Of a DNA stretch of 64,000 nt, positions 4,901-64,000 are shown piece after piece; the stretch's first letter is position 1; each line of letters starts with the position of its first letter. The notes beneath the pieces are model-generated. The model did not search any database. It had not been told where the DNA came from and saw only the letters and a list, made by a program, of their open reading frames with translations. The DNA lies in contig NZ_PTXL01000010.1 in assembly GCF_004343775.1 (NCBI RefSeq), positions 248,001 to 312,000 on the forward strand. The letters run 5' to 3'. The position numbers and the translations under genes are program-made. This DNA comes from Burkholderia sp. SRS-46 (GTDB lineage: Bacteria; Pseudomonadota; Gammaproteobacteria; Burkholderiales; Burkholderiaceae).

Positions 4901-7900
4901 GCGACGTCGCCAAAGCCGGCGCCGGCAACCGCCGCGCCGAGATCGGCAGGTATCGGCGACGGCAATCCAACGGCGTCGGCAGTTGCGGCCTGCAAGCCGA
5001 ACACGATATCCGCGAAGCGGCCACGGCGCGGCTCGGCGAGCAACAAGAGCCCGCCCGGCGCGAGCCACGAACGGATCGCAGACAGCGCATCGAGCGGATC
5101 CGGGCGACCGCTCAATCCGCGATTGACGACAACCACGTCGTAGGGTCCCGCGTCGTCACCCGACAGTGCGAGTCGCTCGCCTGGCTGCAGCGTTACCGTG
5201 CGCATGCCCGCCAGTGCTTCAGCCTCGAATCCCGGCAGCTGACCCGCCGTCGCAGCAATCGCGTAATCGCAGCGCGCGGCCGGCAGATGCACGCCCAGCG
5301 GCTGCAGAACGTCGCCGTCGGTCGCATTCAGCTCGAGCACGCGAAGCCGGCGCGTCGGACGCCAAGCGTCGAGCGTCTTCTCGACGCCCGCCTTCAGCAG
5401 CGCATGCGTATGGCTCCACGTCGGCGACGCAGCAAAGAAATGCTCGACCAGACCGTGCCCCGTCGGCGACAACACACGTACAGGATCATTCACGCCGGTC
5501 AATACGTCGGGCAGCGCAGCGCCGCATTGTGCAAGCAGCGTCAGTTCGGCGACATGTCCGGGAGATACGGCAAGCAGCCCGCGCCACAGCTCGTCGAGCG
5601 GCGGTAGGGCTGCGCAAGCACCATCGACGCGCGCGAGACGGCCGCTGTCGCGACGTGCGAGACCGTCCTCGACCAGCATGTCCGCGAGCCGCTCCGCAAG
5701 CGCAGCATGTGCCGACGCAGGCTGCCACGCAGCGTCGAATGCGCCGAGCGCATCGAATGCGCGCAGCGCGTACAGGCTTGCAAGCACGTCGAGCAGCGGC
5801 AAGATTTCGGTCAGATGCCGCTCGCGCTGGCTGCCGTTCTCGACCGCCGCGAGCCGGGCCACCGCCTGCTCGAGCAGCACGCCGGGCGCGGGCAAGCTCG
5901 CCGCGTCGCAATCGCCCGGCAGCGGCGTCTCCTCGAGCGTGTAGACGAAGTGCGCCGGCGGGCTATGTCGGCGGCCAACGAGATCCACGCGCCGGAACCG
6001 GCAGCCGCCAAGCCGCGCGACGATCTCACCTCGTGCGTCGAGAAACTCGAAGGTCGCGACGATCGAGTGCGGGCTGCGCCGGTCGATACGTGCCAGCACG
6101 CGTGTGACTGTGTCGCCGCGCAGGTAGTCGACGCGGCCGATCTGAACCGGCACGTAAGCTGGATGCTCGCCATCACGCGCATGCGTGGCGAGCAATGCGA
6201 ACAATGGATGAAAGCCGCTGTCCATCAACCCCGGATGCAGCAGGTAGGCAGCGAGCGAGCGAGCATCGCAGCATACTGCCGGCGCGACGACGTCGGCCAG
6301 CGCCGCATCTTCGGCGATCCGCACCGTGCTGACCCAGCGGAACGCCGGACCGTAACTGAGACCGATCGCCGCGGTGCCTGCATATAGCACGTCGCCGCTC
6401 ATCGCCGGCAGCGCGACGAACGCGTCGAGCGTCGTCGCCGGAACGATGCTGGCCGCGTCGAGCGTGTTGCCGCTGGCCAGCATCCGACCCGTCACGTTGA
6501 GCGTCCATACACCGTCGGACATACGGTCGCGCGTCTCGATCGCGAAGGTCGCCGTGCGGGGCTCAATCACGAGCCGGAACTGCTTCGACTGCTGTGCTTG
6601 AAACACGACCGGCGCGCGAATCTCGAGGTTCTCCAGCGCGACGTCCGACGTTTCGAAATACGCGCGCGCGGCAGCCAGAGCCATCTCCACGTAGCCTGCG
6701 CCCGGGAACGCGACGCCGCCATCGACGACGTGATCGGCCAGCAACGGCAGCTTCGCCGGATCGAGCTGGTTCTCCCACGCGAACGCATGTTCGTGCAGGC
6801 GATAGCCCAGAAGCGGATGTTCGCGGCGGCGGTTCACGAGACCGTAGCCGTCGGCGGTCGGCGTCAGCCAATAGCGCTCGTGCTGCCACGGATAGGTCGG
6901 CAGCGCGACATACGATGCGCCCGGTGCGAAACGCTCAGGATCGACGGCGGCGCCGTGCGCGACCGCCGCAAGAATCGCGTGCTGCAGCATCGCCGCGCTG
7001 CCATGGTCGCGCTTGAGCGTCGGCAGCGACACGCCGGCCGCGTTCGCCGAAGCGAGCGTCTGCTTCACGTACGTGCGCAGGATCGAGTGCGGCGACACCT
7101 CGACGAACAGGCGCACGCCGTCCGTGATCAGTTGCGCGATGCCGGTGCCGAAACGCACCGGCTCGCGGATGTTGCGCCACCAGTAACGAGCGTCCAGTTC
7201 GCTTCCCGACAGCGCGCCGCCTGTCACGGTCGACACGAGGCCGCTGGTGCCCGGCTGCGGCCGGATGCCGGCCAGCTCGGCGAGCACGACAGGCTCGATC
7301 CGGTCCATGTGCCTGCTGTGGAACGCGTAGTCGAGGTCCAGCATCTGGAAGAGCTTGCTGCTGCCACGCAGCGACGCCTCGAACGCCTGCAGCCCCTGCA
7401 GCGAGCCCGCGAGCGTCACGGAGTCCGGGCTGTTGACACCCGCGATCTCGACAAGCTGCGCAAGCCCGTGGTGCGCGATCAGTTCGCGCGCCGCGTCCTC
7501 GCCGAGACCCACTGCCGCCATCCGGCCACTGCCGCGCGTCATCGCTTGCGCGCGGCTGCGAATCTTGATTACGCGCACCGCGTCGGCAAGCGACAGCGCG
7601 CCCGTCACCCATGCTGCGGCGACTTCGCCGACGCTGTGCCCGATCGCGGCGTCGTAGCGCATGCCGCGCGCGTCGATCACGCGCGTCATGCCGACCTGGA
7701 TCGCAAACAGCAATGGCTGGGCGTTTTCGGTCGCAGCGAGCCACTCGGCGCTCGCGCCTTCGCGCATCACGTCGACGAGCGACGGGCTGCCGCCCGTACA
7801 CCATAGCGCGTCGACCTCGTCGAGCGCCGCGCGAAACACCGCATCCTCTTCGTACAACTGCTTGCCCATCCCGGCCCACTGGGAACCATTGCCGGAGAAC

Positions 7901-9513
7901 ACGAGCGCGGTGCGCACGGCGTCTGCGGGCGCGTCGCCCGTCACCACGCAAACGGGCAGTGCGTCCTGCGACGGTTCCGCCAGAGCAGCGAGGGCTGCTC
8001 GCCCTTCGGCGACGTCGGCCGGCGCGACGATCATGCGATGTTCGAGCCATTGGCGGCGACGCGTGGCCGCCGCTGCGAGCGCTTGCCAGTCTCCGTCGTC
8101 GCAGAGCGCCGCCAGATAGCGACCGGCGAGTGCGGCGAGCGCCTTCACGCTGCGTGCTGTCAGCACGAGCGGCGACGGGGCGGCGGGCATTGCAGCCGAC
8201 GCGCCTGGCGCGGCAGCAGGATTCGGCGCTTCCGTCAGCACCACGTGCGCATTGGTACCACCGAAGCCAAACGAATTGACACCCACGGTCAGCGGTGCGT
8301 CGCGCCCATCGAGCGTCGTGTAGCGATCGACCACGCGCAGGCGACCGCCGTCGAAATCGATGTTCGGGTTCGGCGTCACGAAGTGCAGCGAGCGGGGCAC
8401 CGCACGGTGCTTCAGGCACAGCACGGCCTTCACCAGGCCGGCCATCCCGGACGCCGTCTCCAGGTGCCCGATGTTGGTTTTGACCGAACCGATGAGGAGC
8501 GGTTGGTCGGCGGGGCGCCCTGCCGATACGACGTCGATCAGCGCGCGCGCCTCGATCGGATCACCGACCGCGGTGCCAGTACCATGTGCTTCGAGATATG
8601 CAAGCGAACGCGGCTCGATGCCCGCGCGCTCGTAGACACTTCGGAGCAGCGTCGTCTGTGCATCCAGGCCAGGCACGCTGATGCCGCCAGGTGAATGACC
8701 GACGGAGTTCACGCCGGAGCCGGCGATCACCGCGTGAATCGTGTCGCCGTCGGCAAGCGCGCAATCGAGCGGCTTGAGCAGCACGAACGCCCCGCCCTCC
8801 GAACGGACATAGCCGTCGCCCGTCGCATCGAACGCGCTGCAGCGGCCGCGCGGGGACAGCATCGACGCCTTCGAGAAGCTGACGAAGCCGAACGGATGCA
8901 GCAGCAGGTTGACGCCGCCCGCGAGCGCCATGTCGGTCTCGCCAGATTGGAGCGACTGAACGGCTTGATGCAGCGCGACGAGCGACGACGAGCATGCGGT
9001 ATCGACCGACATGCTCGGTCCGCGCAGGTCGAACAGGTAGGACACGCGGTTCGACGCGATGCTCAGGGTGTTGCCGGTAGCCGAATACGGATCGATCACA
9101 TTCAGGTCGTCCATGTTGCGGTTGCCGTAATCCATGCTCGCTGCGCCGACGAAAACGCCACAGTTGCTGCCGCGCATGTCGGTCGGACGCACGCCGGCAT
9201 CCTCGAAGGCTTCCCACGCGAGTTCTAGCAGCAGGCGCTGTTGCGGGTCCATCTGCGTCGCTTCGCGCGGCGAAATGCCGAAGAACGCGGCGTCGAAGCC
9301 GGCGACGTCATCGAGTACACCCGCGGCGAACGTGTAGCTCTTGCCCGGTTCGCGTTTTGACGGATGCTGGTAGAAGTCGGTGCCGAAGCGGCTCACGGGG
9401 ACTTCCGTGACGGCATCACGCTCATCAAGCAGCAGGCGCCAGAAATCATCGACTCCTTCAACGCCGCCGGGAAATCGGCAAGCCATCCCGATAATTGCTA
9501 TCTCTTTACTCAT
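1930..9513 (-). CDS. wcbR: Single-module reducing polyketide/fatty acid synthase
   Basis: Multidomain type I synthase of 2527 residues when started at the ATG at 9513 (MSKEIAIIGMA), where a GGAG overlaps the preceding stop; an in-frame ATG at 9540 has no visible RBS. Domain order: KS (about 1-430; Cys174 in DTACSSS, His310, His350), AT (535-850; Ser627 in GHSVGE, AFHS at about 731 as in malonyl-specific ATs), DH (900-1180; HVVDGGVAFP, His928, and DSGFH), a methyltransferase-like region (1370-1560) with a degenerate SAM motif, ER (1730-2045; GGAGGVG), KR (2110-2300; GGTGGLG, NYVAANS) and ACP (Ser about 2431 in GMDSLM). There is no thioesterase, so the saturated chain must be handed to another enzyme; the oxoamine synthase two genes downstream is the obvious candidate. 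Equivalent to WcbR/RkpA, required for capsule in relatives. Confidence 0.93.
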   Translation of the reverse strand: MSKEIAIIGMACRFPGGVEGVDDFWRLLLDERDAVTEVPVSRFGTDFYQHPSKREPGKSYTFAAGVLDDVAGFDAAFFGISPREATQMDPQQRLLLELAWEAFEDAGVRPTDMRGSNCGVFVGAASMDYGNRNMDDLNVIDPYSATGNTLSIASNRVSYLFDLRGPSMSVDTACSSSLVALHQAVQSLQSGETDMALAGGVNLLLHPFGFVSFSKASMLSPRGRCSAFDATGDGYVRSEGGAFVLLKPLDCALADGDTIHAVIAGSGVNSVGHSPGGISVPGLDAQTTLLRSVYERAGIEPRSLAYLEAHGTGTAVGDPIEARALIDVVSAGRPADQPLLIGSVKTNIGHLETASGMAGLVKAVLCLKHRAVPRSLHFVTPNPNIDFDGGRLRVVDRYTTLDGRDAPLTVGVNSFGFGGTNAHVVLTEAPNPAAAPGASAAMPAAPSPLVLTARSVKALAALAGRYLAALCDDGDWQALAAAATRRRQWLEHRMIVAPADVAEGRAALAALAEPSQDALPVCVVTGDAPADAVRTALVFSGNGSQWAGMGKQLYEEDAVFRAALDEVDALWCTGGSPSLVDVMREGASAEWLAATENAQPLLFAIQVGMTRVIDARGMRYDAAIGHSVGEVAAAWVTGALSLADAVRVIKIRSRAQAMTRGSGRMAAVGLGEDAARELIAHHGLAQLVEIAGVNSPDSVTLAGSLQGLQAFEASLRGSSKLFQMLDLDYAFHSRHMDRIEPVVLAELAGIRPQPGTSGLVSTVTGGALSGSELDARYWWRNIREPVRFGTGIAQLITDGVRLFVEVSPHSILRTYVKQTLASANAAGVSLPTLKRDHGSAAMLQHAILAAVAHGAAVDPERFAPGASYVALPTYPWQHERYWLTPTADGYGLVNRRREHPLLGYRLHEHAFAWENQLDPAKLPLLADHVVDGGVAFPGAGYVEMALAAARAYFETSDVALENLEIRAPVVFQAQQSKQFRLVIEPRTATFAIETRDRMSDGVWTLNVTGRMLASGNTLDAASIVPATTLDAFVALPAMSGDVLYAGTAAIGLSYGPAFRWVSTVRIAEDAALADVVAPAVCCDARSLAAYLLHPGLMDSGFHPLFALLATHARDGEHPAYVPVQIGRVDYLRGDTVTRVLARIDRRSPHSIVATFEFLDARGEIVARLGGCRFRRVDLVGRRHSPPAHFVYTLEETPLPGDCDAASLPAPGVLLEQAVARLAAVENGSQRERHLTEILPLLDVLASLYALRAFDALGAFDAAWQPASAHAALAERLADMLVEDGLARRDSGRLARVDGACAALPPLDELWRGLLAVSPGHVAELTLLAQCGAALPDVLTGVNDPVRVLSPTGHGLVEHFFAASPTWSHTHALLKAGVEKTLDAWRPTRRLRVLELNATDGDVLQPLGVHLPAARCDYAIAATAGQLPGFEAEALAGMRTVTLQPGERLALSGDDAGPYDVVVVNRGLSGRPDPLDALSAIRSWLAPGGLLLLAEPRRGRFADIVFGLQAATADAVGLPSPIPADLGAAVAGAGFGDVARHAEQSLDLEGAPALVIARNPTTSAVDNAADGFDALARTERWLVLHASESGAFGARLAAALVGAGYPADACEIACAADAIAALPDAQPHHVVFCAPETALDDATTGAQLLAAQQSGAIALAALVRLFDAQACAAVRLTVVTRGGAPFAGAANAHPEHATLWGLGRVLANEHPELACRMIDVDPRADVLLDALVRELTGAALEEEVVLSARGRLVPRMLTAASVAARNVRTVAQPAVLAFDAPGSLRHLEWFALPERALAADEIEIEPAATGLNFRDVMYAMGLLSDEAVETGFAGATIGMELSGRVVRVGADVTGFVPGDAVLGFAPASFAARVTTCVAAIAHKPERLSFEEAATVPTAFFTAYYALVELARLRRGERVLVHGGAGGVGIAAIQLARHFGAEVFATAGSDEKREFVRLLGADHVLDSRSLAFADEIRAMTAGAGVDVVLNSLAGEAMVRSIDTLRPFGRFLELGKRDFYENSHIGLRPFRNNISYFGIDADQLMGALPELTARVFGEVMKLFAAGALHPLPYRVFPAERAEGAFRYMQQARQIGKVLVIYPSGTPAPKLGVAAPGPLVLDSHGAYLVVGGTGGLGFASARWMVERGARHVTLASRSGILMGAALDEAVRWRDTLGVTVDVVACDVTNEAAVDAMVAAIAARGTPLKGVLHSAMSIDDGLVRNLDDARFAAVLAPKVAGAWNLHRATRALKVDWFVVYSSATTYLGNPGQSNYVAANSFLEALIEHRRAAGLPGTFMAWGPVEDVGFLARHANTREALQTRIGGASITSDEAMVALEHVLVTGAAGEAVARLDWHAVARGMPATKARRYALLQIHAGGGDTGDGGGRLREDVLGLMRDNAVALVAQTLQGQIARILHMTPERIAIDRSVLDMGMDSLMGMELGLAVEEAFDVKLSVMAIAEGVTVTTLAGRIVDSIVASADGGGEPAEGVTNEAVAALAEKHALDGDAQALLDVAPAAPAAMPTVPETVQ

Positions 9514-9524
9514 CGTAATGTCAT

Positions 9525-11054
9525 TCACTCCGGCGAACATTCGAGTTGTGCATTTGCCTGATCGACGGAAGTCGCCCTCAGCAGCGCGGACCCGAGTTCC
9601 TCCGCACGCAAATCCTGCCGTTCCCCGGACAGAACATCGAAGTTGCGCCAGATAAAGTAATTGCTCTTCTCGGGCGAGGCGCCCAGTTTGTCGAACACGT
9701 GCCCCAGCGCTGGAACGTGATCACCGTAAAAGCACACCACGGTGTCCCGGCGCCGCTCGCGCAGGTATCCGAGTAGCCGCCCGATCATCGCATCCGCATT
9801 GGCCACGTGGCGCAGATAGGCGGTGAGGTCCCGCCAGTCCGCATCCTCGCCAAGTCGGTGGAGCGGCAGCGACTCCCCGGGACTGACGAACTCGAGATGC
9901 AACGGCCCATGATTTTCCATCGTCATCGCAAAAACGAACACCGGACTATCGGCTGATGCATCTAGCTCCGCGATGACGGCGTCAGCGACCGCGACATCGC
10001 CAACATAAGCACCTGTTCGCTCCACGTCCGCAAAATGCCTGATGTCGAGAAAGCGCTCGAACTGGAGTAGCGGATACGCGCGATCCCGACCGAAGAAATC
10101 TGCATAGTACGGATGAATCGCGGTCGTGCGATGGCCGGCGCGGCGGAACCAGCCAGCCAGCGACGCGCAACGACGACGCAGAAACGCGTAAGGATAGAAA
10201 CGCGCGTAGCCGAGCCGCTCCGACGCGACACCCGTCAGCACCGAGAATTCGGTGCGCATAGTGTTGGCGCCCCAAGCAGGTACCGCCAGTCGGCCATGCA
10301 TGACGGATTCGCGACAAGCCCGGTCGAATTGCGCGTACACCGCCGGCTCGATCGCCGGAATATGATCTCGTGCATCGAAGTAAGATTCACTCTGAATCAC
10401 GATCACGTCCGGCCGCACCCTCGGCACGCTGCCCGCGAACGGACTTGTCTCCAGTGTGCGGAGCAGGGTTTCGAACGTCGTGGGACGCAGGCCATTCAAT
10501 AGAAGGGCAACGAACACCGCAAAAAAACCGTGGCGACGCTGGTCGTTGTTCGCGTCGAGTGTAAGCGGCAGGCGCGCTGCCACCAACCGGCCAGCGAACA
10601 GGCAGACGAGTGCCGTCAGCGCGGCACCGACACGAGTATCCGGATATGGCGACGTCTCCGAGCAGTACCCTGCCGAAAGCGCCACGACTGCGGCCAGTGC
10701 ACCCGCAACCGCAGCCGGACTCAGAAACGGCAGATACAGCCGAGGATGCGAAAACAACTGGCTGAACAAGCTCAGATCCGAGAATACGAACGGCTCGCGC
10801 AATGCTTTGTATTTTGCGTTACTGACAACTACCACCAAGCAAACCAGTGCGACCGTAACGAATGCCGAGAACGACGGACGGCGCGTTACGAGCAGCATGA
10901 GACTTGCGACGAACGCAAAGGCGAGCACATGAAGCGCCAACGCAGCGCAGGAACGTCGAAACCTCGCGCGCGGCTTGGCCATAGCATCCGGCAAGAACGA
11001 CGTTGCAGCACCGATTGCGAAGATGAGCAGAAGCCGCACCTCAGCGCTCCTCAT
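9525..11054 (-). CDS. wcbQ: Membrane-bound LTA-synthase/sulfatase-like phosphotransferase
   Basis: A 509-residue protein. The N-terminal 180 residues contain several hydrophobic membrane segments, followed by an alkaline-phosphatase-superfamily domain facing the periplasm. Motifs match LtaS/OpgB-type phosphoglycerol and phosphoethanolamine transferases: IQSESYF (metal Glu), NTMRTEF (Thr nucleophile region) and YGDHVPALG (metal Asp-His). Its start overlaps the 3' end of the SDR gene by 14 bases. Position and type match WcbQ of B. pseudomallei and RkpI of rhizobia. A plausible role is transfer of a phosphoalcohol head group to the capsule lipid or polymer; the substrate is not known. Confidence 0.85.
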   Translation of the reverse strand: MRSAEVRLLLIFAIGAATSFLPDAMAKPRARFRRSCAALALHVLAFAFVASLMLLVTRRPSFSAFVTVALVCLVVVVSNAKYKALREPFVFSDLSLFSQLFSHPRLYLPFLSPAAVAGALAAVVALSAGYCSETSPYPDTRVGAALTALVCLFAGRLVAARLPLTLDANNDQRRHGFFAVFVALLLNGLRPTTFETLLRTLETSPFAGSVPRVRPDVIVIQSESYFDARDHIPAIEPAVYAQFDRACRESVMHGRLAVPAWGANTMRTEFSVLTGVASERLGYARFYPYAFLRRRCASLAGWFRRAGHRTTAIHPYYADFFGRDRAYPLLQFERFLDIRHFADVERTGAYVGDVAVADAVIAELDASADSPVFVFAMTMENHGPLHLEFVSPGESLPLHRLGEDADWRDLTAYLRHVANADAMIGRLLGYLRERRRDTVVCFYGDHVPALGHVFDKLGASPEKSNYFIWRNFDVLSGERQDLRAEELGSALLRATSVDQANAQLECSPE

Positions 11055-42983: not shown

Positions 42984-43799
42984 TCAGAAAAGCTCATCCA
43001 GCATCAGGTGAAATTGCAGCTTGCACCGATCGGAGTCGGTGATGCCGTACAGTTCGAATAGCCTTTTTTGCAGCGATGGGCCAAACTCACCAAGACAGTT
43101 CCAAAGGATGGCAAGGTCTTGGTAGCGATCGGCAATGCCAACCCGGCCAGCGTCGATGCAGCCAACCACTTCACCCTCATGCATCAAAACGTTGTCCAGC
43201 GAAAAATCGCCATGGGTCACGACTGGATCAGGTGCAAACGGAAGCAAGCCCTGCATGGCTTCCCAAACCTGATCGGCCGTCCAACCTTCCCGTTCCTGGT
43301 CGAAATTATCGACTTCGACCAGGCCAGCATCGATGCGTCTCCTTGCTCGGTTAAGCCGAAACTCGTGGCGACTGTTGAACGGGCAGACGCTCACCGGGAT
43401 CGCGTGCAGTCGGCGCAGAAATCTTACCAGCGCATCCACCACGTCGGGACCGGCATCGGGGTTTGCCTCCAACACCTGATAAGCCGTCTTGCCGGGCATG
43501 GCCGTCATCAGGAGCCACGCCTCGTCTGGCGCGCGGACAAAGTGCTTAATCGTTGGTACGGGCAAATGGTCAGCCAACCAGCGCAGCCTCACCATTTCGT
43601 CGGTTACGTCATCGGCGGCGCCATCCTTGCCCTGTTTCAGGAAGAGGTCCGGCGCAAGGGCTTTACCATGCAAACGGTAGACGGAGCAACCGGACTGGCC
43701 CACCGTGTCGCGTGCCCATTTGTATCCATCAACCTCAACGAGCATGGTTGAGGGTACCTGCACGATCGCACAGGCCTCTTCGAACTCGGCGTCACTCAT
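42984..43799 (-). CDS. aph(3'): Aminoglycoside 3'-phosphotransferase, APH(3') family
   Basis: Started at the ATG at 43799 the protein has 271 residues, exactly the usual APH(3') length (the frame extends to 43871). It is clearly homologous to APH(3')-Ia: GYKWARDTVGQSGCSVYRL, VTDEMVRLRWLADHLPVPTI, the Brenner motif VVTHGDFSLDNVLM (catalytic Asp and Asn), the metal Asp region CIDAGRVGIADRYQDLA and the terminal KLQFHLMLDELF. Known members phosphorylate kanamycin and neomycin on the 3'-OH. It is flanked by IS30/IS66 debris and an acetyltransferase remnant, so it may have moved as a resistance gene; spectrum unknown. Confidence 0.92.
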   Translation of the reverse strand: MSDAEFEEACAIVQVPSTMLVEVDGYKWARDTVGQSGCSVYRLHGKALAPDLFLKQGKDGAADDVTDEMVRLRWLADHLPVPTIKHFVRAPDEAWLLMTAMPGKTAYQVLEANPDAGPDVVDALVRFLRRLHAIPVSVCPFNSRHEFRLNRARRRIDAGLVEVDNFDQEREGWTADQVWEAMQGLLPFAPDPVVTHGDFSLDNVLMHEGEVVGCIDAGRVGIADRYQDLAILWNCLGEFGPSLQKRLFELYGITDSDRCKLQFHLMLDELF

Positions 43800-43863
43800 C
43801 TCTTGCGTCTCTTGAATCATCTTTGATGAAGTAATTCTTGGAACGATCTGTGTCAAATTTGGG

Positions 43864-44140
43864 TTAGGCATTTACGCAATTCGGCTGCGGGCGAAATTTC
43901 TGTATCGACGGTCCCAAAAAATCGAAATCCAGAAGCTTCGTAGAATGATCGTACCCGATCGCCAGCCACGACGCGCAACGATAGAAACGACGGAATCCAA
44001 GTTTCATAGCATTACGCTCAGATTCGATCAGAAGCCTTTTGCTCACTCCCATTCACCATACTTCGGGCGCAACAAGCAGGTCTTCGAGTTCCGCCTCGGT
44101 GCCGATACCGGTAACGACTGCTATGAAGTCGACGTGTTCC
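43864..44140 (-). pseudogene. Frameshifted GNAT acetyltransferase remnant
   Basis: Minus-strand pieces HVDFIAVVTGIGTEAELEDL then LVAPEV, a frameshift/stop, and SKRLLIESERNAMKLGFRRF. Together they match the acetyl-CoA loop of GNAT proteins (EDLLVAPExxGxGxxKRLL). The expected GxG is destroyed. The 5' part is absent and the MATE fragment begins upstream. Confidence 0.6.
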
Positions 44141-48913: not shown

Positions 48914-49597
48914 GTGACAGCAGAGCGAGATCTCGCCGAGGAACGGCTGCGGGCATACCGTCGCGAACTGTTCGGTGCAAAGAGCGAGGCACGAGACTCT
49001 GACCAGCTCGGTCTGTTCAACAAAGCCGAAGCGCTCGGCGCGAACGCGGCACCCGCTCAGGAAGACATCCCGGAAACGACCATCGCCGCGCACACGCGCA
49101 AGAAACGCGGTCACCGCAAACCACTCGATCCCAATCTGCCACGCGAAGTCGTACGGCACGAACTGCCCGAAGCCGAGCGTGTCTGCGCCCACGACGGCCA
49201 CGCACTCGTCGAGATCGGCGTGGAGATCAGCGAGCAGCTCGATGTGATTCCGGAGCAGCTTCGCGTGATCCAGTACCAGCGCGTCAAGTATGCGTGCCCG
49301 TGCTGCGATCTCGGCATCAAGGTCACACCAGCGCCGGTGCGCATCATCCCGCGCGGACTGTTGAGCGAATCCGCAATCGCGTGGATCGCCACCGGCAAGT
49401 ATCAGTTCGGTATGCCGCTGTATCGCCAGGCTGGTTTGCTGCGCCGCTTCGGCGGCGACATCTCATCGAACACGATCGCCGCGAGGATGGTTCGCGTCGG
49501 ACTCGCGGCGCAGCCGGTGATCAACCTGATGCGTGACGCACTGCTCGAGGCCGAACTGATCTATTGCGACGAGACGACGTTCCAGGTCCTGAAAGGG
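48914..49597 (+). pseudogene. IS66-family TnpC N-terminal half, second subfamily
   Basis: From GTG 48914: LAEERLRAYRRELFGAKSEA, the DUF-like zinc-finger region HELPEAERVCAHDGHALVEI, KYACPCCDLGIKVTPAPVRI and the start of the catalytic domain ELIYCDETTFQVLK at the 3' end. It breaks off just after the first catalytic Asp. Sequence differs strongly from the other IS66 copies here, so it came from a different IS66 subtype. Confidence 0.85.
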
Positions 49598-50318
49598 GTA
49601 TGCGTACTTTTCATGCGAAATGTGGCGGTTTCAGGGTGATGCCCCGCCTGCAGCAAGGCTTGGCCGCCATTGGGATTTCACGCGGCCTGTCCAATCGCAA
49701 GCCCTTGATCTTTTGGCTCTTTTCAGACCCAACCACCATTTCCTGCACGATAAGGACGATCACCCCTGCAAGCAACGATCTCGCACCACGCTGGCGGGCA
49801 GCGACGAATCGAAGTCGACGCCGTAGGGAACGCAACGGCGCAGGTTGCGATGCTCCAGCGTATGCACCGTCGTGATCAGTTATTTTTCCTAAAGTGGAAT
49901 GTTGCATGACGCCCCCTCGAAATGTATCGATTTTTATTTAGATTTGCGTGAAATTATTTTGTAATGTTAATTGGGTGAATGTTTACGTTTACATTGATTT
50001 TGTATTGTCAGTTTAATTGATTTCATCCCCCTGAATTGCCGGTTTTTTGGCCAAATTTAACGGGAAGGAAGGGTGTCTATACATCTGACAAATTCGGAAG
50101 ATGCATGATGTCTCGCCTGCTCGGGGGCTATTGGTTCTGTAAGCGTTTTGCGGAGTAGTTTGTTAATGAAGCACTGAATTTCCATGGGAAATATGTGCGG
50201 GGTTTTTCATATTGCCGGTTTTGATTTATCGCAATTCTCTTGAATTCCCATAAAAACACACTATTGTTCAATGCCATCTGCTCTGTCGTTTTTGGCGATT
50301 GCCCGGTGGGAGAATGAC
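49598..50318. other. AT-rich intergenic stretch without a gene
   Basis: The first 300 bases look like decayed IS sequence with no convincing frame. From 49,900 to 50,270 the composition turns very AT-rich (runs such as TTTTTATTTAGATTTGCGTG and TGTAATGTTAATTGGGTG), unlike the rest of the window. It lies upstream of the membrane-protein/lipoprotein/cysteine-ladder genes and may include their promoter and silencer-protein binding DNA. Confidence 0.45.
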
Positions 50319-50942: not shown

Positions 50943-50981
50943 CTGGATCGCCGCGGTCGATGGCCCTAACGGGGAGTGCGC

Positions 50982-51974
50982 ATGAAAACGCTTGCATGGA
51001 TTCTGCTTGCGGCCGGTCTTTCCGCCGGATGCTCGAAGAACGAGACGCCCTCTCCGCCGGCGTCGGATTCGGCAAGCGCCAGCGCCATCGCGGCGCCGAC
51101 AGCAAACAGCGCGGCAAGCGAGCCGGCTCGCCTGCCCGCGACGCCTGCGACAGCCGCGAGCCTGGCCGGCGCCGACGACGCCGGCAATCCTCCGGACTCG
51201 CCGCATGCGATGCCGCCACAAAGTCCCACCAGCCCGATCAACGTGCTGCGCATCGATGTGCATCAGAAAGGCACGTCGTCGGGCGTGCCCGCCGATATTT
51301 ACCGGATCGCCTCGGACGGCAACAAGTATTACGTCGCAACGACCGATCAGAGCGGGACGGTCACGCCGAATTCGTCGTGTCTGAATACGGATCGCTTTAA
51401 TGTCACCACAACGCTGCCTGATTATCTCGATCCGGGGCCGCAGGCATGCGGGCCGGTCGTCCATTTCGAGGTGTCGACCGCGCAGGCGGCCTACGCGTTG
51501 GTCAAGCTCGGCGGCGATGCGTTCAAGGCCGATCGATTCGGGGAGGCGCAGGCGTATTTCAGCGCGGCAGCCGACGCGCTTCAGCAGTCGCGCCCCGGCG
51601 ACGCACATTTCCTGCGCGGTCAGGCGCTGCTGTCAGCCGGGAAAATGCTAGGAGTCGATGTGCCGACGGCAACGGTCAACGGCGTGCCAACCGCCACGAT
51701 CGAGTTCACCCGGAAGCTGCGTCAATTTCAGTCGAGCCAGAATTTGACGCCGACAGGAAAGCTGGACGACTCGACAGTGCAATCGCTTGGCGGCATTGGC
51801 AAGACAGAGGCGTTGCAGCGCGCGCTGAAGATTTCACCCGATCGCATTCAGAAATTCCGCGTCGATGAGGCGCCGCCTTCGACTGCCGTTCCGAATCAGC
51901 CGGAACGGAATCCGTCGCGTGCATTGCCGCGATATGACCTGAGAGGTCTGGCCGGAGTACAGCGCGGCGGCTGA
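50982..51974 (+). CDS. Lipoprotein with TPR-like and peptidoglycan-binding-like parts
   Basis: 330 residues from the ATG at 50982, with GGGGAG seven bases upstream. Lipoprotein signal MKTLAWILLAAG then LSAGC. Residues 20-80 are an Ala/Ser/Pro-rich linker; 85-170 a compact domain (NVLRIDVHQKG, PADIYRIASDGNKYYVATTD); 170-215 resemble one or two TPR helices (GGDAFKADRFGEAQAYFSAA); 235-270 (FTRKLRQFQSSQNLTPTGKL then DDSTVQSLG) match the three-helix peptidoglycan-binding fold. Outer-membrane or cell-wall anchoring is likely. Function unknown. Confidence 0.7.
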   Translation: MKTLAWILLAAGLSAGCSKNETPSPPASDSASASAIAAPTANSAASEPARLPATPATAASLAGADDAGNPPDSPHAMPPQSPTSPINVLRIDVHQKGTSSGVPADIYRIASDGNKYYVATTDQSGTVTPNSSCLNTDRFNVTTTLPDYLDPGPQACGPVVHFEVSTAQAAYALVKLGGDAFKADRFGEAQAYFSAAADALQQSRPGDAHFLRGQALLSAGKMLGVDVPTATVNGVPTATIEFTRKLRQFQSSQNLTPTGKLDDSTVQSLGGIGKTEALQRALKISPDRIQKFRVDEAPPSTAVPNQPERNPSRALPRYDLRGLAGVQRGG

Positions 51975-52234: not shown

Positions 52235-54196
52235 ATGAGCAACTCTTTCAAGCAGTCCACCACGCGGAACCTGGCGGAGCAGGCGGCGGCGATCGCAGCG
52301 CTGTCTGCCGACCGCGGCGCGTTCGACGCCGCCCTGGATGCCTATCTGATGGCGGACGCAAATGGTTTCCGGTATGTGCTCGGGCAGCAAAAGCTGATAG
52401 ATCGCTGCGAACTCATTTGCCACTGGTTCCGCACCAAATGGTGCGTGGTCACTTGCCTGAAGCTATGCGGGCCAGCCTCCGCCGAGACGCAGCGTTTCGC
52501 CGACATCCGGCGCCTGGCCGAGGTGATCGTCAAGATCGCCGGCGACGAGGTATTGTTGAACAAGGTTATCGCGGGCGTCGAAGCACAGGATGCGGACGAT
52601 TTCGCCGAGGTCGTGGCGCAGTTGAAGATCAGGGACATCTGCCACTACGTTTGTTCGTGGGTCTGCACCGTGTTGTCCGAGCGGGTTTGCCGCATCGTCT
52701 GCTCGCCGTTGGTGGTCGAGGTGCCGAGCCAGGCCGAGACGGTACGCGCTGCGGCGGCGGTGATCGCGAAGCTCGCTGCCGATGGCCAGACACTCGAGGC
52801 GGCGGCCGCCGCGGCGCGCGCAGGCGACTGCGAAAGCCTGCGCAAGATCATCCGGGGCCTGCCGATCGAGGGGCGCTGCCACATCATCTGCGAGTCGTTC
52901 TGCACTTGGCGTTGCGTGTCGGTGTGCTTGACCATCTGCCGCGCCTTCCCGTTGCCGCCGCTGACAGACGTGCGAACCGAAGTCTACGCATTCGCTCAGG
53001 CGGTGGGCCGTCTCGGGCCGCAGACGGCCAGCCTCGAAACGTTGACCGATGCCGTGCGCACGGCCGACGGCGAGCAATACGCCGCCGAGCTGAAGCGGCT
53101 GGGCTACGAGCGCTTTTGCGTCCAGCTGTGCAAATGGATCTGCACCGAGGTCTGCGAGGAGTTCTGCTTCTGCGTATGTCCCCCGACTTCCACTGCGGCG
53201 TTCACCAAGATCGGCGGTTACTACTACAGCTTCGAGGTGGCCAGTGCGCTCAACGGTAACGGCTTGACCAACGACAACCGCGCCTTCTTCGACACCATGC
53301 GCTTGAACGGCGGCTATGCGCTGGTCGACGGGGCGCCGCAGGTCCAGTACCGCTTCGAGATCGTGCCCACCGACGCCAACGGCAACCCTGCGGGTGCGTG
53401 GGTACCGGTGCTTCCAACGCAGATCGCCGCGACGAATATCGGCTGGATCAGTGGTCTGATGGGGCAGGAGGTCTGGGTGAACAACCCGACGCCGAGCCCG
53501 AACGTGATCAATATCACGCCGGCGGCCGATGGCTGGATCACAGTGCCGCCGGTGCAGTCGTTCGGCGGTAAGTTCATACCCGGCTCGGACCTGATCAACC
53601 TGATTTCCACCACCTTGCAGCCCTGGCCTTCCCACGACGAGACCGGCGTGATGGCCGGCTCCAGCGCCAACCTGCCCCTGGCCGCTGACCGCTACTACGG
53701 CATCCGCATGCGCGTGCGCAATCTGGGCGATGTGGGTGACGGCAGCGATGCGGGTACGTGCACGCACGTCGCGATCGACAACACGCTGTACTCCAACGTG
53801 GCACATCACACCTATTGGGACGGCTATGTCGGCGTGAACGAGCTGGCGGTTTGCTCGGTGGGCATCCAGGAGTTGATTCCTGCCGGCTGCGCCGAGATCA
53901 CCACCAGTCTCACCGTGGTATTCACCGCGGCGCATCCGAACCTCGATCCGAACGGCGTTTCCATTACGCTGACCGGACCCGGCGGCCCGTACCAGTTCAC
54001 GCTCGATCCGGCCGCTACCAGCACGGCGGACAACCGGTTCGGAACCGCTGTTCCCAATAACTGGATCCTGACCAACTTGCCGGACTGTGCCTATTTCGTC
54101 GATCTCAGCGTCAATGTCCTGCTGACGACCGGCGACGCAGTGCCTGGTCCGCTGCACGACCTGTTCGCATTCTGCAAGCATGTGAAACGCGGTTGA
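52235..54196 (+). CDS. Cysteine-ladder repeat protein
   Basis: 653 residues from ATG 52235 (MSNSFKQSTTRN), AGGA ten bases upstream; the frame continues upstream but shows no other good start. Residues 1-320 contain four repeats of 78-80 residues. Each has two amphipathic helices followed by a 21-residue helix with Cys every fourth residue: C58/62/70/74/78; C136/140/144/152/156; C215/219/223/227/231/235; C295/299/303/307/311/315 plus C313. Residues 325-653 are strand-rich with many Gly/Pro/Asn and five scattered Cys, ending in an immunoglobulin-like or adhesin-like segment (TGPGGPYQFTLDPAA). No signal peptide or membrane segment. I know no family with this arrangement. Cys at i+4 spacing along helices would line one face and could bind metals, as in CxxxC copper-storage bundles, or form disulfide staples. 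Confidence 0.75.
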   Translation: MSNSFKQSTTRNLAEQAAAIAALSADRGAFDAALDAYLMADANGFRYVLGQQKLIDRCELICHWFRTKWCVVTCLKLCGPASAETQRFADIRRLAEVIVKIAGDEVLLNKVIAGVEAQDADDFAEVVAQLKIRDICHYVCSWVCTVLSERVCRIVCSPLVVEVPSQAETVRAAAAVIAKLAADGQTLEAAAAAARAGDCESLRKIIRGLPIEGRCHIICESFCTWRCVSVCLTICRAFPLPPLTDVRTEVYAFAQAVGRLGPQTASLETLTDAVRTADGEQYAAELKRLGYERFCVQLCKWICTEVCEEFCFCVCPPTSTAAFTKIGGYYYSFEVASALNGNGLTNDNRAFFDTMRLNGGYALVDGAPQVQYRFEIVPTDANGNPAGAWVPVLPTQIAATNIGWISGLMGQEVWVNNPTPSPNVINITPAADGWITVPPVQSFGGKFIPGSDLINLISTTLQPWPSHDETGVMAGSSANLPLAADRYYGIRMRVRNLGDVGDGSDAGTCTHVAIDNTLYSNVAHHTYWDGYVGVNELAVCSVGIQELIPAGCAEITTSLTVVFTAAHPNLDPNGVSITLTGPGGPYQFTLDPAATSTADNRFGTAVPNNWILTNLPDCAYFVDLSVNVLLTTGDAVPGPLHDLFAFCKHVKRG

Positions 54197-58696: not shown

Positions 58697-58912
58697 TGTT
58701 GGCGTTCTTTATTGATGCCAGCGGTGCTCATTAACCATGCTAACGGCAATCAAACGGAAACCACCTAGTTTCAAGGAGTTCGGGGGAAATTCCGCATTTC
58801 TCAGGGCGTTGCTATTGCGCAACAAATGACGCTTGCTTTGCTCACTAATTTTGCTAGCGCGGCTTTCGTGTCCTTTAATTCCGCTAGCGTGTCCCGTACC
58901 TTTGCTGGAGCG
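58697..58912 (+). repeat. Left end of a TniA/TnsB-type transposon with repeat array
   Basis: Terminus TGTTGG at 58697, then repeats of the about 21-bp unit at 58703-58723, 58725-58745, 58839-58859, 58869-58889 and 58890-58912 (first halves GTTCTTT, TGCTCAT, TGCTCAC, TGTCCTT, TGTCCCG; second halves GCCAGCG, GCTAACG, GCTAGCG, GCTAGCG, GCTGGAGCG). The transposase GTG start follows four bases after the last repeat. Same unit as the orphan array at 32.8 kb. Confidence 0.7.
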
Positions 58913-58915
58913 AAC

Positions 58916-60187
58916 GTGGCTTCCCTCGAAGAGATCGAAACTCGAGCAGCGAAGGTCGCATTGGTGCTCAGGCCGCTCGGGAGAGGCGCGCTTTCGCGAA
59001 AGCAGGCAGAGCGCGCTGCGCAACTACTCGGTGTTCATTGGGCAACCGTCTATCGGTTACGACGGCGCTTCCTTGCGAATCCAGTGGCCAGCGCCTTGCA
59101 GCCGTTGCCGCGAGGTCGATCTCGCCGCGGAAGACTGGACACCGCTGTCGAGAGCGTCATCGATGAAGTTGTGCATGAATGGCTACCTGCGCAGCGACAA
59201 CTGGCTCATCCCGAAACGGGCATGGTGCTCGAGGTCAAGCGTCGATGTGCTCTCGCAGGCTTGGTTTCGCCTAGTCGATCGACGGTTGCTCGCCGCTGGG
59301 CGGCATATCGCGAACAGGATGCATTGGCACGCGCGGCGCTTCCAGGCGCGATAGTTGTGCCCGGCACGTTCGAGGCCCGGCATCCCCTAGATGTCGTCCA
59401 GATCGATCACACGCAGGCCGACATACTGCTGGTAAACGAACGGGACGGTCAGATCATTGGTCGACCCTGGCTCTCGCTGGCGCTTGACGTTGCAACGAGG
59501 TGTGTTCTCGGCTTCTACTTGGGAATGGATCGACCGGGCGCAGCGACGGTTGGTTTGCTCCTTACGCGCGTCGTGCTACCGAAGGCAGCGTGGCTTGAAA
59601 AAATCGGTATCGATGCGCAATGGCCAATGCGCGGCATTCCCCGCACTTTGCATCTCGACAACGCAGCGGAGTTCAAAAGCAGAGCGCTCCGTAGCGGATG
59701 CCGCGAGTACGGTATCGACCTCATGTACCGACCAGTAGGCAAGCCACACTTTGGTGGCCATATTGAACGGCTTAACAGGACACTAATGGAGCGGGTGCGA
59801 GGATTGCCAGGGTCGACTGGGTCGTCCGTCAACGGAAGGAAAGCGCGTCAGGCCGAAAAGACCGCCGCACTCACGCTGAAAGACTTTGAGCAGTGGCTGA
59901 CGATCGAGATTGGCCGGCAATATCACAGCACTTCCCATCGTGGCCTTTCGGGACTGCCGCCTGCCGAGATGTGGCGAGAGAAAAGTCGTTCGGTTGAGTC
60001 ACGATGTTTGCCGAATGTCCCCGATGCCAAGCTTCAATTTTTGATCCGATTCTTGCCAGTGGCCACGCGAACCATACAGCCGGACGGCCTGAGCATCTTT
60101 CGCATTCGGTACTGGCATCCGCTGTTTTCAGCGTGGCGGGAAACACGCCGTGCAGTGACTGTTCGTTACCACCCAGAAGATTTTTGA
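58916..60187 (+). pseudogene. TniA/TnsB-like DDE transposase, truncated in its C-terminal domain
   Basis: Taken from the GTG at 58916, just after the repeat array (423 residues; the frame extends upstream to 58826). HTH part: GALSRKQAERAAQLLGVHWA. Catalytic domain: VVQIDHTQADILLVN (first Asp), LHLDNAAEFKSRALRSG (second Asp) and GKPHFGGHIERLNRTLMERV (Glu). The Mu-transposase C-terminal barrel starts ([20 protein letters not shown]) but is cut at [10 protein letters not shown] by the IS3 orfA fragment at 60190. TniB/TniQ-type partners are absent. Confidence 0.82.
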
Positions 60188-60718: not shown

Positions 60719-61519
60719 ATGTTCGAGAAGTATCTGAAGCAGTGGGATCTGACGATAGATGGTGATCCCTTTGGATCGCGGAACGGCGTTCTCCTCCCAG
60801 TGCGCCAACGTGACGTACCGGCCATGCTAAAGATTTCGCGAGAACTAGAGGAGCGCGCGGGTAACCGTCTCATGGCGTGGTGGAATGGCGATGGTGCAGC
60901 ACCAGTGCTTGCCCACGAGGACGAAGCCTTGCTCATGGTACGGGCGCAAAGTTCAGTTTCGCTCGCACAGATGGTCAAACTGGGCAGCGATGACGATGCG
61001 ACACACATCCTGTGTGCAACCACCTCACGCCTACACAAACGGCATGCAGAACCACTTCCCGGTCTGATTCCGTTGACGCAATGGTTCGATGCGCTGCTGT
61101 CTACGGCTGGCGGGCACGGTCGCTTTTTCGATCACTGCGCACGTACCGCGCGAGATCTGCTGGAAACTCCACGTGACGTAACGGTGCTGCATGGCGACGT
61201 TCATCACGGTAATGTTCTCGATTTCGGCGCGGCCGGCTGGCTTGCCATTGACCCAAAGGGTTTGTACGGTGAGCGTGGTTTCGACTACGCCAACATCTTC
61301 TGTAACCCCGACGGAGAAAGCGCATTGGCTCCGGGTATCTTCACTCACCGTCTTGAGTTAGTGGTTGAAGCCACTGGCATCGAGCGTCATCGACTTCTGC
61401 AATGGGTGCTCGCGTGGACCGGTTTATCGACGGTATGGATGTGCGCAGAGGGAGACGATGCAGGTAGCACGCTAGGGATAGGGAAACTCGCTGCGTCCGC
61501 CCTTGACATGGTCGATTGA
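60719..61519 (+). CDS. aph(6): APH(6)-type aminoglycoside (streptomycin) phosphotransferase
   Basis: 266 residues of the aminoglycoside/hydroxyurea kinase family (PF04655), resembling StrB/APH(6). Kinase motifs: VTVLHGDVHHGNVLDFGAAG (catalytic Asp and Asn) and WLAIDPKGLYGERGFDYANI (metal Asp). RLMAWWNGDGAAPVLAHEDE matches the hinge region. Family members phosphorylate streptomycin at the 6-OH. It is flanked by IS3 debris on one side and an acetyltransferase fragment and IS66 on the other, suggesting lateral movement. Confidence 0.88.
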   Translation: MFEKYLKQWDLTIDGDPFGSRNGVLLPVRQRDVPAMLKISRELEERAGNRLMAWWNGDGAAPVLAHEDEALLMVRAQSSVSLAQMVKLGSDDDATHILCATTSRLHKRHAEPLPGLIPLTQWFDALLSTAGGHGRFFDHCARTARDLLETPRDVTVLHGDVHHGNVLDFGAAGWLAIDPKGLYGERGFDYANIFCNPDGESALAPGIFTHRLELVVEATGIERHRLLQWVLAWTGLSTVWMCAEGDDAGSTLGIGKLAASALDMVD

Positions 61520-61703: not shown

Positions 61704-61791
61704 GTAAGCCCCCGGTGAAGTCATCTTGTCTGTCCGCTTCCCGACCGGGAGGATCGTGTCCACTTAATTTTTAAGTGGACACGTGTACACC

Positions 61792-62184
61792 ATGGACGGA
61801 AACGAAGCTGGGGAACTGGAGCAGATCGAGCCGACGCACCGGCGCCGGCATAGCCGCGAGTTCAAGGAGAAGGTCGTGCGCGCGGCGATGCAACCGAATG
61901 TATCGATCGCGGCGGTCGCGTTGCACTATCGCCTGAACGCCAACCTTGTGCGCCGCTGGGTTGTCGCTCAGCAGAAGCAACGGATGCTCGAGCCGCCAGC
62001 CGTTGAAGGGCTCGACGTGCCGCAGGCGGCATTCATGCCACTCCAGTTGGGAGCGGCGTGTGCGCCGACGGGCGAGTCAGAGATTCGGATCGAGGTTCGT
62101 CGGGGCGCCGCGACGCTCACGGTGCATTGGCCGCTGTCGGCGGCCGGCGAGTGCGCGGCGTGGCTGCGGGACTGGCTGCGATGA
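61792..62184 (+). CDS. tnpA: IS66 TnpA accessory protein
   Basis: 130 residues from the ATG at 61792 (MDGNEAGELEQIEPTHRRRH); a GTG/ATG three codons upstream is possible. HTH region SREFKEKVVRAAMQPNVSIA and ALHYRLNANLVRRWVVAQQK. Its stop overlaps the tnpB ATG (ATGA). Confidence 0.88.
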   Translation: MDGNEAGELEQIEPTHRRRHSREFKEKVVRAAMQPNVSIAAVALHYRLNANLVRRWVVAQQKQRMLEPPAVEGLDVPQAAFMPLQLGAACAPTGESEIRIEVRRGAATLTVHWPLSAAGECAAWLRDWLR

Positions 62185-62516
62185 TTCGAATCGATGCGAT
62201 CTGGCTCGCGACCGAGCCGATCGACATGCGTGCCGGTGCGGATACGCTGCTTGCCCGGGTGGTGAAGGTGTTCGGCGCAGTGCGGCCGCATCACGCGTAT
62301 CTGTTTGCCAATCGGCATTCCACGCGCATGAAGGTGCTGGTCTACGATGGATTGGGCATCTGGCTGGCCGCGCGTCGGCTGAACAAGGGCCGCTTCATCT
62401 GGAGCGATGGCGAACAGTCGGTTTCGCTGCCGCTGAACGCCGAACAACTGCGTGCGCTGGTCACGGGTTTGCCGTGGCGGACGCTGACACCCGATCACGC
62501 GATTACCGTGATATGA
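62181..62516 (+). CDS. tnpB: IS66 Orf2 (TnpB)
   Basis: 111 residues, ATG at 62181. PIDMRAGADTLLARVVKVFG and YDGLGIWLAARRLNKGRFIW are family hallmarks. Same length as the copy-1 protein. Confidence 0.9.
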   Translation: MIRIDAIWLATEPIDMRAGADTLLARVVKVFGAVRPHHAYLFANRHSTRMKVLVYDGLGIWLAARRLNKGRFIWSDGEQSVSLPLNAEQLRALVTGLPWRTLTPDHAITVI

Positions 62517-62579
62517 GCCACACGGAGACGTAAACAGTTGCGCTTCCGCGCTGGCGCAGCCTCTGGCAGACTGGCCAGC

Positions 62580-64000
62580 ATGGACCTGCCCACCGACCTC
62601 GACTCCCTGAGCCCGGAACAGCTGCGTGCGTTGGCCGCACAACTGATCGTGCAGGTCACGGAGAAAGAGCGGGAAGCCTGCGAGAAGGAACGGGAGCTGC
62701 AGTATCGGCAAACGCGTATCGACCAACTGACGCACGAACTCTCCGTGCTCAAGCGCCTGCAATTCGGCAAGCGCAGCGAGCGGCTCGATGCCGAACAGAT
62801 GAGCCTGCTCGACGAGGCGATCGATGCGGACCTGGCGGCACTCGAAGCCGAGCTCGAGCAGCTTCGGCCGGCCACGCCCGCCGCTGAGGAGCGCCAGAAG
62901 CCGAAGCGCGCGCTCTTGCCGCCGAACTTGCCGCGCACGGACGTCCATCACGAACCGGAAGACACCACGTGCCCGTGCGGTTGCCAGCGGGAGCGTGTGG
63001 GCGAAGACATCAGCGAGAAGCTGGACTATGCGCCTGGCGTGTTCACGGTCGAGCGGCATATCCGGGGCAAGTGGGCCTGCCGGCACTGCGGAACCCTGAT
63101 CCAGGCGCCAGTCTCGCCTCACGTCATCGACAAGGGCATTCCGACCACCGGGCTGCTGGCGCAGGTGCTGGTTGCCAAATACGGCGACCACTTGCCGCTG
63201 TACCGGCAGGAACGCATCTTTGCTCGCGCCGGCCTGGCGATCCCGCAATCGACGCTCGGTGCCTGGGTCGGCGTCTGCGGTGTACGGCTGCAGCCACTGG
63301 TCGATGCGCTGCGCGAAGCGCTCCTGCAGCAGGACGTGCTGCACGCCGACGAGACGCCGGTGCAGATGCTGGCACCTGGCAAGGGCAAGACGCATCGGGC
63401 TTACCTATGGGCGTACAGCACGACGCCGTTCGCCGATCTGAAGACCGTGGTCTACGACTTCGCCGACAGCCGCGCCGGCGAACATGCCCGAAAGTTCCTT
63501 GGGGCCTGGTGCGGCAAACTCATGTGCGACGACTACAGCGGCTACAAGGCCAGCTTCGAACTGGGCATCACGGAAATTGGATGTGTCGCTCACGCGCGCC
63601 GGAAGTTCTACGAGCTGCACGTTAACCACCAGAGCCAGATCGCCGAGCAGGCGCTGAAATACTTCGGCGCGCTCTATGACGTCGAACGCGATGTCGCCGA
63701 ACTGAAGCCCGACCGACGGCAGGCCATCCGCCGGCAGCGATCCAGACCCGTTGCCGATGCATTGCACGCCTGGATGGTGACCCAACGCAAGCTGGTTGCC
63801 GAAGGATCTGCGATTGCGAAGGCGCTCGACTACAGCCTGAAACGCTGGGAAGCGCTCATGCGCTATCTCGACGACGGGCGTGTGCCCATCGACAACAACT
63901 GGCTGGAAAACCAGATTCGCCCATGGGCAATGGGGCGTTCATTGTGCACCTCATTCCGAAACCTCGATAAACATTGGGATCTGCGCTTCATCATCGTTAC
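62580..64000 (+). pseudogene. tnpC: IS66 TnpC transposase, 3' end replaced
   Basis: From ATG 62580 (MDLPTDLDSLSPEQLRALAA) the frame is open to the window edge. Zinc-finger region TTCPCGCQRERVGEDISEKL, catalytic DVLHADETPVQMLAPGKGKT, CDDYSGYKASFELGITEIG and the Glu region IDNNWLENQIRPWAMGR are intact. After MGR (about 63938) copy 1 continues ANWLFVGSLRAG, whereas here it reads SLCTSFRNLDKHWDL, so another DNA begins within the gene. The three catalytic residues lie before the break, but about 50 C-terminal residues are lost. Confidence 0.85.

Follow-up and report, generated by a model that had tools for sequence, protein, structure and literature searches.

In the alpha-hairpinins, according to the excerpted text of PMC11591084, CX3C or CX3CX3C motifs lie on two antiparallel helices that are joined by cross-helix disulfides. 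The small Tims are built as a twin CX3C helix-loop-helix with bridges C1-C4 and C2-C3, and in their reduced form Tim9 and Tim10 are Zn-binding (excerpt of PMC3759932). In Csp3, as described in part of PMC5171941, the scaffold keeps the thiols apart, and none of them is disulfide-bonded.

Here we describe a protein encoded in a stretch of 64,000 nucleotides from Burkholderia sp. SRS-46 (contig NZ_PTXL01000010.1, positions 248,001 to 312,000), which we call the window. With the alpha-hairpinins (6C type CX3CX3C-Xn-CX3CX3C, e.g. Nigellin-1.1) the protein shares step-4 Cys and two antiparallel helices (excerpt of PMC11591084), and their antiparallel cross-helix Cys pairing appears to be matched here by evolutionary coupling between positions whose residue numbers sum to 214 or 530. 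The same excerpt gives the alpha-hairpinins two or three rungs and a loop of 4-20 residues (PMC11591084), whereas the present protein has up to six rungs, and its 57 (C78 to C136) and 59 (C235 to C295) residues between paired ladders do not fit the alpha-hairpinin spacing. Unlike them, it is moreover bacterial, contains two ladder pairs and is fused to a beta half. The small Tims are small and mitochondrial and have two rungs, against 22 ladder Cys on four helices here, and the Pfam and PDB sequence scans gave no small-Tim match. Csp1 and Csp3 likewise have Cys-rich CXXXC helices, but these form small four-helix bundles for which the excerpt of PMC5171941 describes no disulfides, and DUF326 (PF03860) was absent from the Pfam matches (E up to 1) of the present protein (P0001) and of 35 individual repeats. 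Zipping of helices by Cys thus has precedents of two or three rungs, and our searches found none for the ladder length, the helical fold, the bacterial setting or the fusion. By analogy, the protein may be regarded as akin to cross-helix Cys-zipped hairpins, while standing outside any named family.

Four cysteine ladders joined to a beta-rich half

The gene (52235..54196, plus strand, as are all its parts below) is a single open frame of 653 aa that begins with ATG, with AAAGGA 10 bases upstream, and its relatives begin near the same place. Residues 1-318 (52235..53188) form a helical half which AlphaFold resolves into four repeats of four helices. A sequence-only reading of the window had described four Cys-ladder repeats here, and we recover them with starts at C58, C136, C215 and C295, spaced by 78, 79 and 80 residues, and with 5, 5, 6 and 6 of the six step-4 positions filled, giving 22 ladder Cys plus C313 out of 29 Cys in the whole protein. 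Ladder helix 1 (52406..52468) carries C58, C62, C70, C74 and C78, with R66 in the remaining position, and ladder helix 2 (52640..52702) carries C136, C140, C144, C152 and C156, with S148 in the remaining one. Ladder helices 3 (52877..52939; C215, C219, C223, C227, C231, C235) and 4 (53117..53179; C295, C299, C303, C307, C311, C315, plus C313) are complete. Step 4 alone among steps 1 to 12 has windows, eight in number, in which Cys fills five or more of the six positions. When residues 1-318 were shuffled, 392 of 200,000 sequences showed even one ladder of at least five in six starting at Cys, compared with six such windows in the real protein. Against the organism's own 8.6 Mb genome, a repeat profile finds these four repeats with E <= 6.2e-23 and, among the 150 of 226 candidates that were scored, no further repeat better than E 0.17.

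The helicity assumed for the ladders is borne out by the AlphaFold model, which sets each of them on one helix (H55-78, H133-155, H215-234 and H292-314; pLDDT 92), the final Cys of ladders 2, 3 and 4 lying one residue beyond the predicted helix end. Folded alone, the helical half is predicted with a pLDDT of 91.9, a pTM of 0.91 and 16 helices. A fold search of the PDB with this half gave no convincing match, and Csp was absent among the fold matches listed. By sequence, the whole protein found no match in the PDB, and the helical profile hit designed helical proteins only (best E 0.29).

For the C-terminal half (residues 319-653; 53189..54193), the earlier description as strand-rich and adhesin-like holds at the level of the fold only. 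No helix of at least four residues is predicted in it by AlphaFold, and the model appears Ig/FN3-like at common-fold level, its best Foldseek match (E 1.7e-3) extending over one domain only; the resemblance to RbmA and other tandem FN3/Ig adhesins is of the same common-fold kind. The Cys of this half are strongly conserved, 509, 552 and 618 in 136 of 137 sequences and 647 in 133 of 137. The same half also follows other N-termini. Of the seven loci that match in the C-terminal half alone, the three analysed (L011:4959-6809, L014:9242-11128 and L016:2450-4258; P0077-P0079) have transthyretin-like N-termini, two of the three reaching the Pfam TTR-52 cut-off and the third falling below it; these N-termini are not hydrophobic and carry several Cys of their own.

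Ladder cysteines are gained and lost mostly in pairs

In the alignment, C66 and C148 are nearly always present together or absent together, and the same is true of C78 and C136. These pairs belong to an antiparallel register in which the residue numbers of ladders 1 and 2 sum to 214, giving six pairs, and those of ladders 3 and 4 sum to 530. We derived this pairing rule on a first alignment and then applied it to sequences fetched later. In the first set (73 sequences with ladder), antiparallel pairing of ladder 1 with 2 and of 3 with 4 yields 778 full, 77 empty and 21 half-filled rungs, compared with 113-173 half-filled rungs for the five other helix pairings or orientations. The later set consists of 65 sequences, 7 of the 72 new ones having been set aside for gaps (64 came through the C-terminal half and one, P0080, through the helical half), and gives 25 half-filled rungs against 145-217 for the five other pairings. 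Since the later sequences are relatives of the first set, we also counted distinct patterns and used a tree of the C-terminal half. With each of the 19 distinct C/non-C patterns counted once, 16 rungs are half-filled, against 52-66 for the other pairings.

The sequences of the tree were drawn from 151 proteins, of which 148 belong to the family once P0077-P0079 are taken away. Nine rows were dropped, P0076 for having no ladder and P0075, P0081, P0082, P0085, P0097, P0120, P0129 and P0151 for gaps in the ladder, leaving 139; exclusion of P0073 and P0080 from the tree and all later work, on account of frame-shifted C-termini, brought this to 137 (P0073 was omitted from A2 as well). Both excluded proteins are metagenome relatives whose helical halves are intact and whose C-terminal halves are frame-shifted. 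On the resulting 137-taxon tree, based on the C-terminal half only (FastTree, midpoint root, parsimony with ties to Cys), there are 19 cases in which the two Cys of a rung change together on one branch and in the same direction: eight at 66-148, six at 78-136, two each at 70-144 and 235-295, and one at 215-315. Random matchings of the 24 positions give a mean of 2.0 and a maximum of 16 shared changes, so that 0 of 20,000 reach 19. Counting against the pairing, shared branch changes also occur in 17 of 264 non-rung pairs, with at most 3. Rungs 58-156, 62-152, 74-140, 219-311, 227-303 and 231-299 underwent one or two changes each, none of them on the same branch in both partners. Where rungs are lost, bulky or small residues appear at both positions, as in R66/Y148 and A78/S136. 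The weak rung is 70-144, half-filled in 32 of 137 sequences, which leaves an odd Cys there; C144 was lost 14 times, 11 of these after the loss of C70, twice together with it and once with C70 present.

A thirteenth pair lies outside the ladders. C199 (52829..52831), which had been left out of the sequence-only reading, proves to be the partner of C313, the Cys that had appeared odd: both are present in 116 sequences, neither in 21 and a single one in 0 (n=137), and 7 of 7 changes are shared. A covariation scan of residues 10-318, made without any prior pairing, places 78-136 at rank 1 and 199-313 at rank 2; ranks 3 to 40 are taken by non-rungs, perhaps because of kinship. Across the 13 pairs, 96 of 137 sequences are free of unpaired Cys, and 32 of the 46 unpaired cases sit at 70-144. 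The Burkholderia protein lacks a single rung, 66/148, and all of its 22 ladder Cys fall into 11 complete rungs.

Selection usually acts against a Cys left without its partner, and perfect coupling of an isolated pair such as C199-C313 is accordingly the behaviour expected of a disulfide. The explanation that we prefer, with a probability of roughly 0.6, is a structural protein in which antiparallel helices, zipped by disulfides, build a rigid block linked to an adhesin-like module. The helical half would contain two antiparallel pairs of ladder helices, 1 with 2 and 3 with 4, each held together by as many as six successive Cys-Cys rungs, and an extra bond, C199-C313, would fasten ladder helix 4 to an inner helix of repeat 3. 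In the working state the rungs would be disulfides, giving a very rigid block that bears the Ig/FN3-like half as a surface or matrix-type module.

Comparison with copper-storage proteins

The sequence-only reading had offered two hypotheses, a metal or thiol store and disulfide-stapled repeats. The second has gained support relative to the first, since gains and losses of Cys follow the antiparallel pairs. A cytosolic metal store, in which Cu(I) or a different soft metal is coordinated by thiolates of ladders that face each other, as in Csp, would agree with the CxxxC-lined helices and with the lack of an apparent signal peptide (see below). The excerpt of PMC5171941 has Csp3 binding Cu(I) through CXXXC in one helix together with Cys of adjacent helices; linear S-Cu-S sites could likewise couple Cys in pairs, and the organism's own genome has no Csp match at E <= 0.001.

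As a control for the pairing itself, we used 37 distinct Csp-type sequences from 48 loci, a small set uncorrected for kinship. With the pairing chosen to fit the data, this set has 31 half-filled and 15 empty pairs, and for comparison the ladder family under its fixed pairing has 46 half-filled and 173 empty ones. The weaker pairing in this small control argues against a metal store, as do the mostly rung-wise losses with bulky or small substitutes at both partners, the isolated and perfectly coupled C199/C313 outside the step-4 ladders, the absence of a DUF326/Csp match and the absence of an adjoining gene common across phyla, and we consider metal storage unlikely. The Csp control also has fully coupled Cys, namely alignment columns 210-239 as a pair and 184/203/262 as a trio, and a metal site can therefore not be told from a disulfide by coupling alone. 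The coupling shows contact between partners and speaks for disulfides without proving them.

Signal peptide and compartment

The disulfide-zipped structure has to be reconciled with the N-terminus. RbmA-type FN3 adhesins are exported by means of a signal peptide; unlike these, the ladder protein has no apparent signal peptide, judged by alignment and hydropathy, in 137 of 137 relatives, and the earlier statement to this effect stands. Only 0-19 residues precede repeat 1, too few for a signal peptide of the usual kind. By hydropathy over the first 40 residues, the highest-scoring 12-residue stretch of one relative (2.29) comes near that of a lipoprotein from the window used as control (2.35), and the 2.29 stretch lies within the first helix of repeat 1. 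The default compartment would consequently be the reducing cytosol, which leaves either export by another route, perhaps via the shared beta half, or a cytosolic ladder, reversible or not, or the holding of metal in the cytosol.

A cytosolic redox switch or thiol reservoir, whose ladder would close under oxidative stress and open again when reduced, storing up to two electrons per rung, would suit coupled pairs without a signal peptide, as these fit reversible bonds, and relatives are present in Rhodanobacter and Sinomonas, which are soil aerobes. No shared redox partner gene was seen in the window or in the relatives' loci, and the Ig/FN3-like half favours a surface role; we thus regard this possibility as quite unlikely. 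A related and still speculative idea, which we hold to be improbable, is a cytoplasmic reversible zipper in which all Cys pairs of a chain, thirteen at most (twelve rungs and C199-C313), act as one. If true, this would be a genetically encoded store of dithiol/disulfide (or of linear Cu(I)) in a new fold, loaded and emptied rung by rung, with the Ig-like module as docking part.

A rare and patchily distributed family

A protein search returned 75 relatives, none bearing a functional name; their best local alignments are 36-75% identical, and 66 relatives extend over 93% or more of the query. From a search with the C-terminal half we used the best 120 of 380 matches. A pattern scan of genome_contigs (84,980 species) yielded 15 loci that code for a relative, eight matching over most or all of the length and seven from about residue 300 on only. 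By record titles, the eight belong to Rhodanobacter, a Solirubrobacteraceae MAG, Solirubrobacter soli, Sinomonas, Streptosporangiaceae, a Chloroflexi MAG, Terriglobia and Bryobacterales, so that the family spans four phyla going by these titles, several of the records being MAGs. A search for stand-alone ladder modules with the helical-half profile found two proteins, the frame-shifted P0080 and the fragment P0081. No relative was found in the phage and plasmid collections, or in viral contigs with the helical half as query.

Closer to home, the gene occurs in 1 of 65 genomes of its own genus and, as a whole gene, in its own genome alone among 299 of its family. Another genome of the family, from a different genus (G145), has a 28-residue remnant of the C-terminal end (L017:1501-1584), 93% identical in protein and 83% in DNA over 86 bases, with no other significant piece of the gene within the 3,087 bases examined; this is apparently a decayed copy. 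The gene being rare and patchy, it was probably acquired.

The claim that the protein belongs to no known family holds in the libraries searched, as Pfam, NCBIfam, PHROGs and the PDB sequences gave no convincing match. Whole proteins were compared with Pfam, NCBIfam and PHROGs, and 35 single repeats with Pfam and NCBIfam. The helical half gave weak matches only, the best being to an XXXCH domain (0.013, in P0067) and, in one repeat each, to Peptidase_Mx1 (0.013) and YicS (0.006). As such matches fall below any curated cut-off shown, we set aside CATASP, Nif11, XXXCH and Syntroph_Cxxx as candidates. Among the matches listed for open-licence PMC papers, none concerned the ladder family.

Precursors of sactipeptides and CXXX-repeat peptides have a neighbouring radical SAM maturase and lengths unlike that of the ladder protein. 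With these in mind, one could also imagine that the protein is the substrate of a thiol-modifying enzyme forming thioethers or similar. The step-4 Cys pattern would allow this, and 1 of 35 repeats touches TIGR04117, but at an E-value of 0.079, which is chance level. That both partners are Cys, that the length and beta-half fusion are unlike precursor peptides, and that no maturase is found by Pfam among ten neighbouring ORFs of the window make such a role highly improbable.

Genomic neighbourhood

No gene adjoining the ladder gene is common across phyla, either between the window and 16 loci or among the eight full-length loci compared with one another. Besides the ladder gene, the window ORFs have distant, weak matches only in the 16 loci, and among the eight full-length loci a few generic matches between transporter ATPases and response regulators occur. 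Two acidobacterial loci, L008 and L009 (ladder genes L008:3623-5236 and L009:2213-3850), have two shared genes 2-8 kb away. One of these precedes the ladder gene by some 5-8 kb and is about 37-46% identical in pieces, and the second lies at L008:7039-8160 and L009:14758-16323.

In the window, a lipoprotein-like ORF with a peptidoglycan-binding match (50976-51974) lies 260 bases upstream of the ladder gene on the same strand and was not found next to the relatives. The ladder gene sits within an IS-rich region, with transposase pieces at 48914-49639, 58826-60187 and 61783-63395, IS66-type and Mu-transposase-type by Pfam and further IS66-like by eye. Two phosphotransferase genes (60719-61519 and 42984-43871) match, one of them APH_6_hur, an aminoglycoside/hydroxyurea kinase family (E 4.7e-77), and the other APH (E 1.2e-37). 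On the minus strand at 1930-9540, an ORF of 2536 aa, whose start resembles a polyketide synthase by eye, adjoins what looks like a sugar/polysaccharide-type gene cluster.

Discussion

The ladders, their predicted helicity and the pairwise evolutionary coupling in the 214/530 register are directly supported. Against the disulfide zipper we weigh the apparent signal peptide in 0 of 137 sequences, the half-filled rung 70-144 in 32 of 137, the six rungs whose few changes were not common to both partners, and, by geometric reasoning, the strongly twisted helices that six step-4 rungs would need. We infer that the coupled partners form disulfides and that the protein acts extracellularly or under oxidising conditions, where it may serve as a scaffold or adhesin.

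The precedents have two or three cross-helix Cys rungs, and six in succession, occurring twice per chain, would go beyond them. Apparent disulfides without a signal peptide raise the question of whether the protein is exported by a new route or whether a long disulfide ladder is formed in the bacterial cytosol, and a stapled helical repeat of this kind would offer a natural template for design.
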